A stretch of DNA of 6,527 nt from a bacterium. Its GTDB lineage: Bacteria > UBP6 > JAFGXH01. The position numbers and the translations under genes are program-made. Of the stretch, positions 1-6,527 are shown piece after piece. The stretch is from contig JAMOQH010000162.1 in the NCBI GenBank assembly GCA_027064085.1, positions 1 through 6,527 of the forward strand. Direction: 5' to 3'. Position 1 is the first letter of the stretch. Every line of letters begins with the position of its first letter. Below the pieces are notes generated by a model. It was not told where the DNA came from and made no database searches. It saw only the letters and a list, made by a program, of their open reading frames with translations.

Positions 1-1265
1 TAAAAAATACTAAAAATTATGAAATTATTTTAAAAAACGGCAATAAGTTAATAATAGAAGACCATTTTTTTAATAAATGTCCAAAAGATTTGGAATATTT
101 AAAAGAGGAAAATATTCCTCAAAAAGTAGAGTTTGGAAATAATGATTTTATAGTTGAAGAAAATATTCCTATAATTTATGGCACAAATAAACTAATCATC
201 AATCAGCAATCACCAATCACTATAACCTGTGGAATAGATATTTTTGCTTCAAGTTTTTTTATGCTTACTCGCTGGGAAGAGTATGTAAAAAAAGAAAGAG
301 ATAGTCATAACCGCTTTCCAGCATATGCAAGTTTGGCTTATAAAAATAACTTTTTAGATAGACCGGTGGTGAATGAATATGTTGAAATGCTTTGGAATAT
401 GTTAAAGTTTTTAGGCATTAAGCAAGAGAGAAAAAAGAAAGAGTTTGAGTTTGTTTTAACTCATGATGTGGATGAAGTACAATTTTGGAAAAATAGAAGG
501 CAATTATTAAAAATAATGGCTGGAGATGTGATTAAAAGAAAAGATTTGAAATTGGCACTTGATAGATTGGCAGAGTTTTATTTAATTAAAAGAGAGAAAA
601 TAAAAGACCCATACGATACGTTTGATTGGTTAATGGACAAAAGTGAAGCTGTTGGGGTAAAGAGCAGATTTTATTTTATGAGTGGGGGAGTTACAGAATA
701 TGACAATAGATATGATATAAAAGAGCAAAAAAAACTTATTGAATGTATAAAAAAAAGAGGACATATAATTGGAATTCATCCAAGTTATAATGCATATAAT
801 GATTTTGAGCAGCTAAAAAAAGAAAAAGAGCTATTAGAAGAAGTTTGTGAGTGTGAAATTAAAGAAGGAAGAGAACATTATTTAAGATTTGAAGTTCCAA
901 CGACTTGGCAGATATGGGAAGATAATAGATTAGAAATTGACAGTACCTGTGGATATGCTGATAAAGAAGGCTTTAGATGTGGCACTGGAGATGAGTTTAG
1001 TGTATATAATGTATTGACAAGAGAGAAATTAAAATTAAAAGAAAGGCCATTGATTTTTATGGATGCAACTCATTCATCTTTGTATAATAAATTAAATATA
1101 TTCAATTCATATAATTTAATAAAAAAGCTCATACATTATTGTAACAAACATAATTCAAATTATACTATCTTATTTCATAATTCGATTTTTGCAAGAAAAC
1201 TTAATATTGATTTTAGGAATTTATATGAGATTATTTTGATAAAAGAAAGGTCAAGGTTAGGATGA
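1..1265 (+). CDS. Polysaccharide deacetylase family protein (CE4-like), 5'-truncated by window edge
   Basis: Probably a metal-dependent deacetylase that removes acetyl groups from an N-acetylated sugar of the surface polysaccharide. The frame is open from the first full codon at base 3. A TTG at 90 could serve as a start, but the residues encoded before it continue the N-terminal domain, so the true start lies upstream. The N-terminal part (to about base 430) matches the accessory domain these proteins carry, with the conserved stretch DIFASSFFMLTRWEEY at about 237-284. The catalytic NodB-like domain follows: THDVD at 459-473 (in the place of TFDDG), GHIIGIHPSY at 759-788 (in the place of the HxxxH metal motif), RFEVPTTW at 885-908, DSTCGY at 939-956 and LFHNS with its late histidine at 1176-1178. 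I see no transmembrane segment in the visible part. A heptanucleotide repeat sits at 194-221. The TGA stop overlaps the next gene's ATG. The family is confident; the substrate is unknown. Confidence 0.85.
   Translation, partial: KNTKNYEIILKNGNKLIIEDHFFNKCPKDLEYLKEENIPQKVEFGNNDFIVEENIPIIYGTNKLIINQQSPITITCGIDIFASSFFMLTRWEEYVKKERDSHNRFPAYASLAYKNNFLDRPVVNEYVEMLWNMLKFLGIKQERKKKEFEFVLTHDVDEVQFWKNRRQLLKIMAGDVIKRKDLKLALDRLAEFYLIKREKIKDPYDTFDWLMDKSEAVGVKSRFYFMSGGVTEYDNRYDIKEQKKLIECIKKRGHIIGIHPSYNAYNDFEQLKKEKELLEEVCECEIKEGREHYLRFEVPTTWQIWEDNRLEIDSTCGYADKEGFRCGTGDEFSVYNVLTREKLKLKERPLIFMDATHSSLYNKLNIFNSYNLIKKLIHYCNKHNSNYTILFHNSIFARKLNIDFRNLYEIILIKERSRLG
194..221 (+). repeat. Heptanucleotide tandem repeat, four units, inside the deacetylase gene
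   Basis: Four consecutive 7-base units fit the consensus AATCANY. The third is the exact AATCACC; the others differ from it by one or two bases at positions 6 and 7. The array is read in frame as part of INQQSPIT, in a stretch between the conserved IPIIYG and CGIDIFAS segments. That stretch is expected to be a variable surface loop. The same unit recurs at 1941-1961 in the next gene. What is seen is the repeat and its frame; the idea of insertion or slippage is inference. Confidence 0.85.
1262..1265 (+). promoter_or_regulatory. ATGA stop/start overlap (translational coupling)
   Basis: The start ATG (1262-1264) of the first glycosyltransferase shares bases with the TGA stop (1263-1265) of the deacetylase. 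An AAGG at 1253-1256 can serve as ribosome-binding site. This geometry usually allows a terminating ribosome to restart, so a frameshift in the deacetylase could also lower expression of the transferase. Confidence 0.75.
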
Positions 1266-2422
1266 AAAAAATTGCAATGTTAGTTCTTAATAATTTTAAA
1301 AACGATAGCAGGGTTTTAAAAGAAGCAATTTCATTAAAAAAAGGAGGATATGATGTTAAGGTTGTTGCTTTATGGGAAGATGAACTTAAAGAATTTGATG
1401 AAGTAAATGGTGTTTCTGTTTATAGGATAAAATTAAAGACTAAAAACTGGTCAAAAAATAAGTTGGTTCAATTAATTAAATATTTTGAGTTCGTTTTTAA
1501 AGTAATAAAAAATTATAAAAATTATGATATATTTCATTGTAATGATTTGAATACATTGCCAATAGGGGTAATGATTAAAAAGTTCTTTAATAACAAAGCT
1601 AAAATTGTTTATGATGCTCATGAATATGAAATAAATGATACACCTTATGAGAGTAAATTAAATATAAAATTAAAATATTTTTTTGAAAAATTTTTAATAA
1701 AATATACTGATAAAGTAATAGCAGTAAGTGATGCAATAGCAAATGAATATATCCGGTTGTATGGTATAGAAAAACCAGCATTAGTTTTAAATACACCACC
1801 ATTTCAACAAATAGAGAAAAAAGATATATTTAGAGAAAAGTTTAATATACCAAAAGAAAATACTATATTTTTATATCAAGGTGGACTTAGCAGTGGAAGA
1901 GGTATAGAGATATTACTTGAAACTTTTAAACAACTTCACCAATCACTAATCACCAATCACCAAAAACCAGTTATAATTTTTATGGGATATGGAGAGTTAG
2001 AAAAAGAGATAAAAAAGGCAAGTGAAGAATATAATAATATATATTATCATCAGGCAGTGAGTCCAAATATATTACTTGATTATACAAGCAGTGCAGATTT
2101 TGGAATATCTACAATTGAAGATAGTTGTTTAAGTTATAGATATTGTTTACCAAATAAGATGTTTGAATATCTTATGGCCGAGATGCCAGTAATTGTATCA
2201 AATTTATATGAGATGAAAAGATTGGTAGAAAGGTATAAAATAGGAATAGTGGCAAAAGAGAATACCCCGCAGGGTTTAAAAGAGGCTATTCAAGAGGCAA
2301 TGAAATTGGACAAAAAAGAGTTGCAGAAGAATATACAAAAGGTGAAAGAAATATATAATTGGGAACAACAAGAAAAAGTTCTGTTAGAAGTTTATAAAGG
2401 TTTATTTAAATGTGCGGAATAA
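1262..2422 (+). CDS. Glycosyltransferase family 4 (GT-B fold), surface polysaccharide synthesis
   Basis: Likely transfers a sugar from a nucleotide-sugar donor to a lipid-linked oligosaccharide on the cytoplasmic side of the inner membrane. The 386 residues fit a standard two-domain GT4. The N-terminal acceptor domain opens with MKKIAMLVLNNFKNDSRV and has HCND at 92-95 and DAHE at 118-121. The linker carries VLNTPP at 175-180. The donor domain has the glycine-rich YQGGLSSGRG, then FMGYGELE, then LPNKMFEY. In the EX7E motif the second glutamate is E302 but the first position is Tyr294, an apparent departure I believe is common in this subgroup. The ATG overlaps the previous stop (ATGA), with AAGG at 1253-1256 five bases before it. 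The last 13 bases overlap the next gene. A heptanucleotide repeat codes for residues about 227-234, in the loop before the FMGYG strand. Sugar and linkage cannot be read from sequence. Confidence 0.88.
   Translation: MKKIAMLVLNNFKNDSRVLKEAISLKKGGYDVKVVALWEDELKEFDEVNGVSVYRIKLKTKNWSKNKLVQLIKYFEFVFKVIKNYKNYDIFHCNDLNTLPIGVMIKKFFNNKAKIVYDAHEYEINDTPYESKLNIKLKYFFEKFLIKYTDKVIAVSDAIANEYIRLYGIEKPALVLNTPPFQQIEKKDIFREKFNIPKENTIFLYQGGLSSGRGIEILLETFKQLHQSLITNHQKPVIIFMGYGELEKEIKKASEEYNNIYYHQAVSPNILLDYTSSADFGISTIEDSCLSYRYCLPNKMFEYLMAEMPVIVSNLYEMKRLVERYKIGIVAKENTPQGLKEAIQEAMKLDKKELQKNIQKVKEIYNWEQQEKVLLEVYKGLFKCAE
1941..1961 (+). repeat. Heptanucleotide tandem repeat, three units, inside the first GT4 gene
   Basis: Three consecutive units are seen: AATCACT followed by two exact AATCACC. 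They are flanked by a decayed unit on each side: CTTCACC at 1934-1940 and AAAAACC at 1962-1968. The translation is HQSLITNHQ, the same peptide cycle as the array in the deacetylase gene. It lies between a helix of the donor domain (LLETFKQL) and the strand leading to FMGYGELE, a site where related GT4 proteins usually have only a short loop. Confidence 0.85.
2396..2400 (+). promoter_or_regulatory. Ribosome-binding site of the AsnB-like gene
   Basis: AAAGG ends nine bases before the ATG at 2410, inside the 3' end of the preceding glycosyltransferase. It supports that ATG as the start. The start is in any case fixed by the family, because the cysteine after Met1 is the catalytic nucleophile. 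Confidence 0.7.
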
Positions 2423-4221
2423 GCGGAATAATAAATAAAAATGACTGTAAAGTGTCAAGAGGAGAGATAAAAAAAATAAATGATTTGATAATTCACAGAG
2501 GTCCTGATGATGAAGGGTATTATTTTGGGGAGAATTTTGCATTCGGGCATAGAAGACTGGCAATTTTGGATTTAAGTGATGCAGGGCATCAGCCTATGGA
2601 GTATAAAGGAAGATATGGTGAGTATGTAATTACATATAATGGAGAGATATATAATTATGTAGAATTAAGAAATGAACTTATAAAAGAAGGGTATAAATTT
2701 AAGTCGAATACAGATACGGAAGTAATTTTAGCTTGTTATGATAAATGGGGTGAGGATTGTGTAAATAGATTTAACGGAATGTGGGCGTTTGCAATATATG
2801 ATAAAAAAAGAGGGATAATATTTTGCAGTCGTGATAGATTTGGGATAAAACCTTTTTATTATACTGAGGTTGGGAAAAAGTTTGTATTTGGCTCGGAGAT
2901 TAAGCAGTTATTGGAATATTATCCTAAGAGATATGTAAACAAGAAAATATTAATGGATTATTTAGTGGTTGGTTTGGAAGAGCATACTGATGAAACGTTT
3001 TTTGAGAATATATATAAACTTGGTCAGTCTCATAATTTAATTTATAACCTTAAAACACATACGTATCAGATAAAAAAATATTATGATATAAATATAGATA
3101 AAGATATTAAAAAATTAAATTTACAAGAGTCAGTAGATTTATTTAAGAATAAATTTATAAATTCTATAAAATTAAGACTTCGCTCAGATGTAAAAGTTGG
3201 AACTTGTTTAAGCGGAGGATTGGATAGTTCGTCTATTGCGGCAATTGCTTCAAGGGAGTATCAAAAACAATCAAATAAAAAATTTACGGCAATTCATGCA
3301 AAATCAATCGAGAATGCAACGGATGAAAGCAGTTATGCAAAAAAAGTGGCTGAATATTGTGATATTGATTTAAAAATTGTAGAGCCATCAACGGAAGATT
3401 TTCTAAAATATTTGGACGAGGTTATATATACTCAAGAAGAACCATTTGGGGGGGCGTCAATATTTATGCAGTATTTTGTATTTAAAAAAGCAAAAGAAAC
3501 AGGATGTAAGGTGATGTTGGACGGACAAGGAGGAGATGAAACTTTATTAGGGTATGAAAGATATTATCCAGCTTATTTGATTAGTTTAGATATTATCAAT
3601 GCAATAAAAAGTTTCTTTTTTACAGTTAAAAATTCTAAACTCTCCGTAAAAGAATTAGCAGCTTATATTATATATTTTACCAATTCAAAAATTAGAATAA
3701 AGAGATTAAAATCAAAACACAGTTATATTAAAAAGGAATATTTTAATTTAATTAATAAAAAGATATTAGAAGAAATTAGTAAAAAATATTTACAGATTCG
3801 AGAATTACAATATTATGAAATTTATAAAACGCAGCTTCCCCATTTATTGAAATATGAGGATAAAAATTCAATGATACATTCAATTGAAACAAGATTACCT
3901 TTTATTGATTATCAAACAATGGAAACTGCTTTATCATTAAATAATAATTTTAAAATTAGTAAAGGCTGGACTAAATATATATTAAGAAAAGTAGTTAATA
4001 ATTATTTACCATATAATGTTGTTTGGAGAAAAAATAAATTTGGATTTGAATCTCCTGCTAAAAAATGGTTATCGAGATTAGATGATAATATAATAAAACA
4101 TTCTAAAATTATTAATGAAATTGTCGATATGATTGATTTAAATAATTTAGATATTTTAAGTAAGTGGAAGTTATTTAATATTGCAAGATGGGAAAAGATA
4201 TATAATGTTGAGATTAGTTAA
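2410..4221 (+). CDS. asnB: AsnB-like asparagine synthase (glutamine-hydrolysing) / sugar-modifying amidotransferase
   Basis: Class II glutamine amidotransferase fused to an ATP-dependent synthetase. Ammonia released from glutamine is passed to an adenylated carboxylate, classically aspartate. The 603 residues are full length. The glutaminase domain (about 1-210) has the nucleophile Cys2 in MCGISGI, HRGPDD at 29-34, HRRL at 47-50, NGE at 77-79 and TDTE at 101-104. The synthetase domain has the ATP-binding SGGLDSS at 268-274, EEPFGG at 343-348, DGQGGDE at 371-377 and the late SIETRLPFID at 491-500. All the motifs I know for both active sites are present, so it should be active. It begins 13 bases inside the upstream glycosyltransferase gene and ends 15 bases before the next. 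In polysaccharide loci such proteins often amidate uronic-acid-type sugars, and that is my preferred reading here by context; ordinary asparagine synthesis is the alternative. A run of seven G lies at 3448-3454, and G+C seems lower after about 3580. Confidence 0.9.
   Translation: MCGISGIINKNDCKVSRGEIKKINDLIIHRGPDDEGYYFGENFAFGHRRLAILDLSDAGHQPMEYKGRYGEYVITYNGEIYNYVELRNELIKEGYKFKSNTDTEVILACYDKWGEDCVNRFNGMWAFAIYDKKRGIIFCSRDRFGIKPFYYTEVGKKFVFGSEIKQLLEYYPKRYVNKKILMDYLVVGLEEHTDETFFENIYKLGQSHNLIYNLKTHTYQIKKYYDINIDKDIKKLNLQESVDLFKNKFINSIKLRLRSDVKVGTCLSGGLDSSSIAAIASREYQKQSNKKFTAIHAKSIENATDESSYAKKVAEYCDIDLKIVEPSTEDFLKYLDEVIYTQEEPFGGASIFMQYFVFKKAKETGCKVMLDGQGGDETLLGYERYYPAYLISLDIINAIKSFFFTVKNSKLSVKELAAYIIYFTNSKIRIKRLKSKHSYIKKEYFNLINKKILEEISKKYLQIRELQYYEIYKTQLPHLLKYEDKNSMIHSIETRLPFIDYQTMETALSLNNNFKISKGWTKYILRKVVNNYLPYNVVWRKNKFGFESPAKKWLSRLDDNIIKHSKIINEIVDMIDLNNLDILSKWKLFNIARWEKIYNVEIS
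3448..3454 (+). repeat. Seven-G homopolymer within the AsnB-like gene
   Basis: GGGGGGG encodes Gly347 and Gly348 plus the first base of Ala349, in the conserved EEPFGG segment. It is currently in frame. It is the longest G run I found in this AT-rich window. It may simply reflect two GGG glycine codons before a GCG alanine codon, though a slip of one base would destroy the synthetase domain. Confidence 0.7.
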
Positions 4222-4236: not shown

Positions 4237-5337
4237 ATGGAATATAAAATACTTCACCTAACCTCAGCTCACCCTCGATATGATACAAGGATTTTTGAAA
4301 AGATGTGTAAAAGTTTAAATAAAGAGTATGAAGTAAATTTAATAGTGGCGGATGGAAAAGATAATGAAATAAAAGATGGAATAAAAATTTATGATGTGGG
4401 GAAGGCTAAAGACAGAAAAGAGAGAATTTTAAAAATAACTAAACGTGTGTTTAAAAAAGCAATGGATTTAGATGCAAAAGTATATCATTTACACGACCCT
4501 GAACTTATTCCAATTGGTTTGAAACTTAAAAAATTAGGTAAAAAAGTTATTTTTGATTCACATGAAGATGTGCCAAAACAGATTTTGGCAAAGCATTATT
4601 TAAATAATTTTTTAAAAAAAATATTATCATTTGGATATTCAAGATATGAAATTTGGGCACTTAGAAAATTTGATTATGTAGTTGCGGCAACTCCGTTTAT
4701 TAGGGATAAGTTTTTAAGAGTAGGTATTAAAAGTATTGATGTGAATAATTTTCCAAAATTAGAAGATTTTGAAAATGTTAAGTCTAAATTTAAAGAAAAA
4801 AATGTTTGTTATGTAGGGACGCTTTATAAAACAAGAGGGATTAAAGAAATAGTAAAAGCTGTTGAAGATTTAGATGTGAGGTTAATTATTGCAGGAAAGT
4901 TTTATGATGAAGAGTATGAAAAAGAGGTTAAAAGTTTAAAAGGATGGAAAAAGGTTGATTTTAGAGGATTTGTAAATAAAAATGAAATTAAAAATATTTT
5001 AGAAAATTCAATAGCAGGGTTAGTTACTTTATATCCTACACCAAGTTATATAGAAGCATATCCTGTTAAAATGTTTGAATATATGGCGGTGGGTATTCCC
5101 GTAATTACTTCTAATGTTCCTTTGTGGAAAGAAATTATAGAAGGGAGTAGGTGTGGTATATGTGTTAACCCTTTGAATCCACAAGAGATAGCAAAAGCAA
5201 TTGACTATCTCTTAAAAAACGATAATGTAGCCAAAGAAATGGGAGAACACGGAAGAAAAGCGATTGAAGAAAAATACAATTGGGAAAATGAGAGAAAAAA
5301 GCTATTAAATATATACTCAAGGATAATAAATAGATGA
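4237..5337 (+). CDS. Glycosyltransferase family 4 with intact EX7E motif
   Basis: Retaining GT-B glycosyltransferase, probably adding one sugar of the repeat unit from a nucleotide-sugar donor at the inner face of the membrane. It has 366 residues, normal for GT4. The acceptor domain starts YKILHLTSAHPRYDTRIFEK, a signature of a GT4 group frequent in O-antigen and capsule loci, and continues with HLHDPE at 84-89 and DSHED at 107-111. The donor domain (from about 188) begins NVCYVGTLYKTRG, has the strand VRLIIAGKF, and the EX7E pair Glu273/Glu281 within EAYPVKMFEYMAVGIPVITS. The C-terminus ends in the usual crossing-back helix (NWENERKKLLNIY). The ATG at 4237 is supported by AAGGA nine bases upstream. 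The TGA stop overlaps the ATG of the next gene. I see no membrane segment or signal peptide. Donor sugar and acceptor are unknown. Confidence 0.9.
   Translation: MEYKILHLTSAHPRYDTRIFEKMCKSLNKEYEVNLIVADGKDNEIKDGIKIYDVGKAKDRKERILKITKRVFKKAMDLDAKVYHLHDPELIPIGLKLKKLGKKVIFDSHEDVPKQILAKHYLNNFLKKILSFGYSRYEIWALRKFDYVVAATPFIRDKFLRVGIKSIDVNNFPKLEDFENVKSKFKEKNVCYVGTLYKTRGIKEIVKAVEDLDVRLIIAGKFYDEEYEKEVKSLKGWKKVDFRGFVNKNEIKNILENSIAGLVTLYPTPSYIEAYPVKMFEYMAVGIPVITSNVPLWKEIIEGSRCGICVNPLNPQEIAKAIDYLLKNDNVAKEMGEHGRKAIEEKYNWENERKKLLNIYSRIINR
5334..5337 (+). promoter_or_regulatory. ATGA stop/start overlap (translational coupling)
   Basis: The ATG at 5334-5336 of the third glycosyltransferase overlaps the TGA at 5335-5337 of the second. 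AAGGA at 5319-5323 sits ten bases before the ATG. This is the second ATGA junction in the window and points to coupled translation of two transferases. Confidence 0.75.
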
Positions 5338-6527
5338 AAGTGGTTTGGATAATTAATCAATATGCATCTACTTCAGAAACGGGAATCGGGGGAAGACATT
5401 ATTATTTGGGTAAGCAATTGGCAAAAAAAGGTTGTAAAGTTTATATTATTACAGCATCATATAGTCATATATTACATAAACCAAAACAATTGAATGATTG
5501 GATTTTAGTTGAGAAAATAGATAAAAATTTTAATTATGTTTGGATTAAAACTTTAAAATATAAGAATGCACATAGCAAAAAAAGAGTTTTAAATTGGATT
5601 ATTTTTACATTTAAGGTTCTCAAATTGCTAAAGAAATTGGAGACACCCAACATTATTATTTCTTCGTCTCCACAACCCTTCGTATTTTTATCAGCTTATA
5701 AAATTGCCAAAAAAGTAAAATCAAAACTTTTTTTTGAGGTAAGGGATATTTGGCCTCTTAGTCTTATAGAGCTTGGGAATATCTCCAGCAAACATCCTTT
5801 TATTCGTTTAATGGGCTGGGTGGAAAAACGAGCATATCAAAAATCTAATTATATTATTTCGAATTTAATTAATTTTTATGAATATTTGCAACAATTTAAT
5901 ATACCAGAAAACAAATTTATATGGATATCTAATGGTGTTTGTCTGGAGGAGATGGATGTATCTGAGCCGTTGGATAAGAATATAATAAAAAGAATCCCTA
6001 AAGATAAATTTATTGTAGGATATGCAGGAAGTATTGGGTTGGCTAATGCGTTAGAATATCTTTTAGAAGCAGCTGAATTGTTAAAAGAAAATAAGAATAT
6101 ATTTTTTATTATTATCGGGGAAGGCAGCGAGAAATCTAAATTAATGAAAAAATATAGTGGTTTAGATAATATATTGTTTTTGCCGGCTATTCCAAAAAAA
6201 CAGATTCAATGTTTGTTGTATTATTTTGATGTATGTTATATAGGGTGGTTAAAAAAAAGAATGTATAATTATGGTGTAGCAGCAAACAAAATTTTTGATT
6301 ATATGTACAGTGAAAAACCCATTTTGCATTCTTATTCTGGAAAGCAAGATATTATTTTAAAAGCCGATTGTGGTTTAACAGTTGAGGCAGAGAATTCTAA
6401 AGCAATTGCTGAAGGAATTCTAAAGTTTTATGAAATGCCAAAAGAGAAATATTATGATTTAGGAAAAAACGGAAAGCAGTATATTTTAAGATATTTAACT
6501 TACAAAAAATTAGCCGAAAAGCTCGAA
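5334..6527 (+). CDS. WbuB-like glycosyltransferase family 4, 3' end beyond the window
   Basis: GT-B glycosyltransferase of the group that includes the fucosaminyltransferase WbuB of O-antigen loci. It likely acts on the lipid-linked repeat unit in the cytoplasm. The frame runs uninterrupted for 398 codons and has no stop before the last base, so the 3' end is missing; the family is usually around 400 residues, so probably little is lost. Visible motifs: MKVVWINQYAST, then the glycine-rich GIGGRHYYLGKQLAKKG near 17-33 in the acceptor domain; EVRDIWPLSLIELG from 135, a hallmark of the group; GYAGSIGLANAL from 229 opening the donor domain; IIIGEGSEK; and NKIFDYM with Asp322. The positions matching EX7E hold Gly314 and Asp322, which I think is normal for WbuB-like enzymes. 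The start is ATG in an ATGA overlap. I do not assign the gene symbol, because the sugar specificity cannot be seen. Confidence 0.88.
   Translation, partial: MKVVWIINQYASTSETGIGGRHYYLGKQLAKKGCKVYIITASYSHILHKPKQLNDWILVEKIDKNFNYVWIKTLKYKNAHSKKRVLNWIIFTFKVLKLLKKLETPNIIISSSPQPFVFLSAYKIAKKVKSKLFFEVRDIWPLSLIELGNISSKHPFIRLMGWVEKRAYQKSNYIISNLINFYEYLQQFNIPENKFIWISNGVCLEEMDVSEPLDKNIIKRIPKDKFIVGYAGSIGLANALEYLLEAAELLKENKNIFFIIIGEGSEKSKLMKKYSGLDNILFLPAIPKKQIQCLLYYFDVCYIGWLKKRMYNYGVAANKIFDYMYSEKPILHSYSGKQDIILKADCGLTVEAENSKAIAEGILKFYEMPKEKYYDLGKNGKQYILRYLTYKKLAEKLE

Follow-up and report, generated by a model that had tools for sequence, protein, structure and literature searches.

Direct repeats of seven-nucleotide units have been described in several bacterial groups. 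The TAACTGA repeats of Beggiatoaceae, Cyanobacteria, and Bacteroidetes carry stop codons in all frames in the forward direction and give an open LSVISYQ cycle in reverse, a codon asymmetry that probably governs their distribution, and most similar heptamers are translatable one way (PMC4679880). The GGGNATC and GGGGA(C/T)T heptamers of Xanthomonas and Nostoc are mostly intergenic and rare in genes; they are scarce between divergent genes, and those of Xanthomonas frequently form convergent inverted pairs (PMC4692102). The AATCACC unit discussed here, which forms two arrays in an analysed stretch of 6,527 nucleotides (the window), is another unit of this known kind of repeat, and the strand argument raised for it was already published for TAACTGA in 2015. 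Searching the literature for AATCACC itself or for its peptide returned a single paper, an unrelated one on plants.

AATCACC shares with TAACTGA the direct 7-nt arrangement, the mostly intergenic location, and the combination of one closed orientation with another that gives an open seven-residue cycle, but TAACTGA lies mostly just 5′ of start codons in one orientation (PMC4679880), a bias that AATCACC lacks. The unit itself also differs, and the window arrays lie inside open reading frames (ORFs) and are the only two in the genome. A period of seven is likewise common to GGGNATC and GGGGA(C/T)T, and the polarity of the Xanthomonas pairs is that of AATCACC pairs elsewhere (PMC4692102), whereas those heptamers contain quadruplex-forming G-tracts, GGTGATT has GG only, and the window contains no pairs. 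The tandem repeats of Borgs resemble the window arrays in lying within genes and yielding disordered amino acid repeats; however, their in-gene unit lengths are divisible by three, in contrast to the 7 nt of the window (PMC9879509).

Two arrays in a predicted surface-polysaccharide locus

The window is the entire contig C162; the draft genome to which it belongs measures 3.65 Mb and has a GC content near 27%. The gene set of the window is predicted to be that of a surface-polysaccharide locus. Both arrays lie on the coding strand, in the AATCACC sense, of intact ORFs, and the features are as follows:

3 to 1265, + strand: host gene 1, DUF7033 protein (ORF; Pfam PF23019, E = 1.3e-34), whose 5′ end lies beyond the contig and continues on contig C161
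194 to 221, + strand: array 1, four degenerate units (TRF span 194-220), in frame within the DUF7033 gene
1262 to 2422, + strand: host gene 2, GT4-type glycosyltransferase (ORF; Pfam PF00534, PF13439)
1936 to 1963, + strand: array 2, about four units (TRF), in frame within the glycosyltransferase gene
2410 to 4221, + strand: gene resembling asparagine synthase (glutamine-hydrolysing) (ORF; Pfam PF00733, E = 8e-68)
4237 to 5337 and 5334 to 6527, + strand: two further glycosyltransferase genes (Pfam PF00534), the second open at the contig end

Array 1 consists of AATCATC AATCAGC AATCACC AATCACT and is translated as LIINQQSPIT, and array 2 consists of CACC AATCACT AATCACC AATCACC AA, with partial ends, and is translated as HQSLITNHQ. 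The best period-7 score of the window was matched by none of 300 dinucleotide shuffles, and the weaker score level common to both arrays was attained in 3 of 300; a direct tandem 7-nt array above chance, which defines bacterial heptanucleotide repeats, was thus found by TRF together with the shuffles. Two usual, non-defining traits of such repeats do not hold here: many dispersed copies are not present in this genome, and the location is not mostly intergenic, as both window arrays are intragenic. A scan of the 3.65 Mb genome placed the unit only on C161 and C162, which overlap in one gene. Contamination of the window contig was considered and ruled out, since its GC content and tetranucleotides match the rest of the genome.

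Contig C161 overlaps the first 293 bases of C162 (1-293 on both contigs) within the DUF7033 gene, with 5 mismatches, which indicate two alleles or an assembly bubble retained as separate contigs. On C161, array 1 reads AATCACC AATCACC AATCACC AATCACT, that is, three perfect units followed by AATCACT; compared with this one second allele, the window differs by 2 substitutions in the array (two mutated units) and has an equal number of units. C161 (L048) bears more short tandem arrays, with periods of 8 and 10, at 3906-3979, 4347-4398, 5680-5716, 6013-6079, and 6441-6464, and two of the 10-mer arrays lie either side of a gene for a four-helix-bundle-like protein. This gene, read as TIGR02436/PF05635-like, was considered as a companion of AATCACC arrays and was dropped, having been found at only 1 of 80 loci.

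Tolerance in protein loops and the origin of the arrays

Relative to close homologues, array 1 stands in place of a β-hairpin turn with a net gain of 2 amino acids, and array 2 aligns as a loop with a net gain of 7 amino acids over the closest homologues, corresponding to three units; on these alignments, both window arrays sit in variable loops. Conserved genes of other genomes also host in-gene arrays, namely lepA, sufB, murF, uvrA (two arrays), and a histidyl-tRNA synthetase-like gene. In the lepA and sufB alignments the array falls within a length-variable segment; murF and uvrA, whose alignments are weaker at the array, were left out of this argument.

The window arrays are very probably ordinary bacterial heptanucleotide repeats in permissive loops of two adjoining surface-polysaccharide genes, kept there by tolerance, and they presumably have no specific function. 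Directly observed are the position and strand of the arrays, the intactness of the ORFs, the aligned loop location, the generic codon arithmetic, and the strand pattern across many phyla. The arrays would probably have been born by local gain of 7-nt units, through replication slippage or array-to-array copying, and would be retained where the host proteins tolerate a polar, disordered stretch; the strand rule is no more than purifying selection against stops, as three or more coding-strand GGTGATT units terminate a gene. In the homologues of array 1 the hairpin is swapped, with no clean insertion, and the birth of the array is not visible in the alignment.

No AATCACC arrays were found in 27 other genomes of the phylum, and independent slippage is an unlikely source of two same-unit arrays lying 1.7 kb apart with none elsewhere in the 3.65 Mb or in those genomes. 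Confinement of the unit to 1.7 kb suggests that the locus was imported or that copying took place locally. Both arrays may have arrived together with a polysaccharide locus that was acquired horizontally from a donor rich in repeats, a possibility that we take seriously while inclining somewhat against it. Besides the isolation of the unit, the other short tandem arrays of different periods on the overlapping contig C161 and the glycosyltransferase homologues, the best of which in the sample come from outside the phylum, speak for such a transfer, whereas the top-scoring DUF7033 homologues come from the same phylum and the base composition of C162 and C161 agrees with that of the genome (GC 27%).

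Surface-sugar loci are a usual home of phase-variable switches, and every gain or loss of 7 nt alters the frame, as would be expected if unit gain and loss turned the polysaccharide genes on and off. Such a switch is nevertheless quite improbable here, as the window and C161 alleles differ by point substitutions at the same unit number, the NHQSPIT cycle is stop-free, and the arrays are degenerate and hence less prone to slippage.

Stop codons and the orientation of arrays in genes

Translation of three AATCACC units gives a stop-free NHQSPIT cycle in all frames, as the initial annotation had stated. One seven-residue cycle in every frame is a trait of all 7-mer repeats, because 7 is not a multiple of 3, and is not specific to AATCACC. 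The reverse unit GGTGATT was said to place a TGA in each frame, and three translated units do read GDW*LVI, but this is true only from three TGAs onward (17 nt or more). An insertion was also expected always to add the same polar peptide, whereas the imperfect window copies encode LIINQQSPIT and HQSLITNHQ. With respect to flanking sequence, the claimed frame neutrality breaks down: 7n bases keep the frame only if n is a multiple of 3, and since any other gain shifts the downstream frame, the element is not frame-neutral to its host. Nor is an unusual safety of the element supported: of the 2340 primitive 7-mer necklaces, 13% are closed on both strands, whereas 50% can be read through on both and 37% on a single one, so that 87% have at least one open strand, and other open heptamers are also intragenic.

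Both window arrays follow the predicted sense orientation, lying on the coding strand of intact ORFs, and 2 of 2 sense copies have a probability of 1/4 without any constraint. The orientation prediction, presented as a sharp one for arrays of at least three units, follows of necessity from the arithmetic, and intact genes are incapable of refuting it: three TGAs at 7-nt spacing shut all frames, so that an intact gene with three or more coding-strand GGTGATT units is impossible. The arithmetic was thus correct, while its generality and novelty were overstated and the prediction was largely tautological.

A scan with one genome per species yielded at least 110 AATCACC stretches in many phyla, and among the matches listed, arrays of at least 21 nt occurred in Bacteroidota, Cyanobacteria, Xanthomonadales, Verrucomicrobiota, Chloroflexota, and others. 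When ORFs were called by a simple method, at least 120 arrays no shorter than 21 nt were tallied among the matches listed, 75 of them fully intergenic; of the same 120 listed arrays, 12 antisense and 1 sense crossed an ORF end, and 32 lay inside ORFs in sense with 0 inside in antisense, 13 of the 32 being near an ORF end, where the true start or stop may leave them outside the gene. The expectation that intragenic copies occur in the sense orientation only thus held for arrays of at least 21 nt among the matches listed, but shorter arrays include 2 antisense copies. The expectation that intergenic copies occur on both strands was borne out, with 24 on the same and 16 on the opposite strand between co-directional genes (p = 0.27; among the matches listed). 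In five genomes analysed with a codon-usage gene caller, all 14 in-gene arrays with at least three TGAs were sense, whereas the shorter ones, which leave room for antisense copies, split into 11 sense and 2 antisense. Because two TGAs leave one frame open, stops alone predict 1 antisense copy in 4 (25%), and the 11:2 split is compatible with this value. In-gene orientation is governed by stop codons. Deep in-gene AATCACC arrays were significantly shorter, but a frame rule, looked for as a 21-nt periodicity of array length in genes, was set aside, as it appeared only as a trend among deep arrays (p = 0.12 exact, 0.07 lenient).

Other heptamer units served as a control. The share of arrays deep in genes was 0/29 for units closed on both strands, 14/151 for units open on one strand, and 8/70 for units open on both; for AATCACC it was 31/161, a sample picked by that unit, which makes the comparison with other heptamers unfair. 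Inside genes, heptamers open on both strands faced either way (5 G-rich, 2 C-rich, and 1 neutral). The short arrays and these two-strand-open heptamers together show that stop codons explain the strand bias. Period 7 is prominent among the tandem repeats of several genomes; in 400 kb of Sphaerospermopsis kisseleviana (L232-L251), heptamer arrays of at least three units number 125, while the other periods between 4 and 12 have 0-4 each. A superfamily RGKNAYY covering all known heptamers was considered and rejected as not general, since it fits 33% of the other S. kisseleviana units, against 5% by chance, and 0 of 19 in a Bacteroidales genome.

Fixed polarity of inverted heptamer array pairs

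Opposite-strand AATCACC arrays less than 250 nt apart have GGTGATT first in 24 of 24 cases. When the pattern was counted across 14 whole genomes, this form turned up at 11 places in four of them, and the same count found no AATCACC pair in the reverse order. The rule extends to other units: among inverted pairs of identical heptamer arrays with arms of at least 13 nt, the G+T-rich arm comes first in 65/65, covering 25 units and many phyla in a sample skewed to genomes with AATCACC. The G-rich arm is first in all 63 pairs with unequal G and C, and slightly looser pair criteria gave 63 G-rich first and 3 neutral. Inverted pairs with periods of 8 and 9 show mixed order. Examples of inverted heptamer pairs and the multicopy form found in Thermomonas are as follows:

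L276, 15833-15907: inverted heptamer pair
L293, 10123-10174: inverted heptamer pair
L098, 3068-3149: inverted heptamer pair
L057, 5006-5105: Thermomonas element (core AAAGAGC...GCTCTT), with copies in L335-L348

The Thermomonas pair is a multicopy palindromic element composed of [GTGATTS]n, GAAAGAGC, a loop of variable length, GCTCTTGCG, and [AATCACC]n. At the orthologous site of a congener (G231), a shorter intergenic region is found without the element, and a core of related appearance, lacking the GGTGATT/AATCACC arms, is present in another congener (G226). In Luteimonas, sequence matches likewise break around an inverted pair. The multicopy state of this palindrome and its absence from the congener's orthologous site suit a mobile element of which the window arrays might be remnants, but such a derivation is highly implausible, as the window arrays are single and direct and show neither a facing GGTGATT arm nor a core, and the palindrome is absent from the window. 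They are lone arrays and not elements of the Thermomonas type.

The idea that the arms of a pair are copies of each other was dropped, since their outer flanks are mostly unrelated. Fixed polarity would follow if arrays extended facing 3′ ends or were inserted in that form, through either a single-strand transposase needing a GT-rich 5′ arm or a telomere-like process that adds G-rich heptamers to broken ends, although we regard this proposal as rather doubtful. Synthesis of tandem repeats by a bacterial reverse transcriptase is known from DRT10 (PMC12632851); no link to the present arrays was found.

The strand rule is of little import, as it restates the TAACTGA argument of 2015 for another unit. 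The G+T-first rule for paired arrays, in contrast, is unexpected. What may matter is the prominence of period 7 in several genomes together with a pair polarity that stays the same across numerous units and phyla, which offers a testable lead on the making or movement of heptamer repeats in bacteria.
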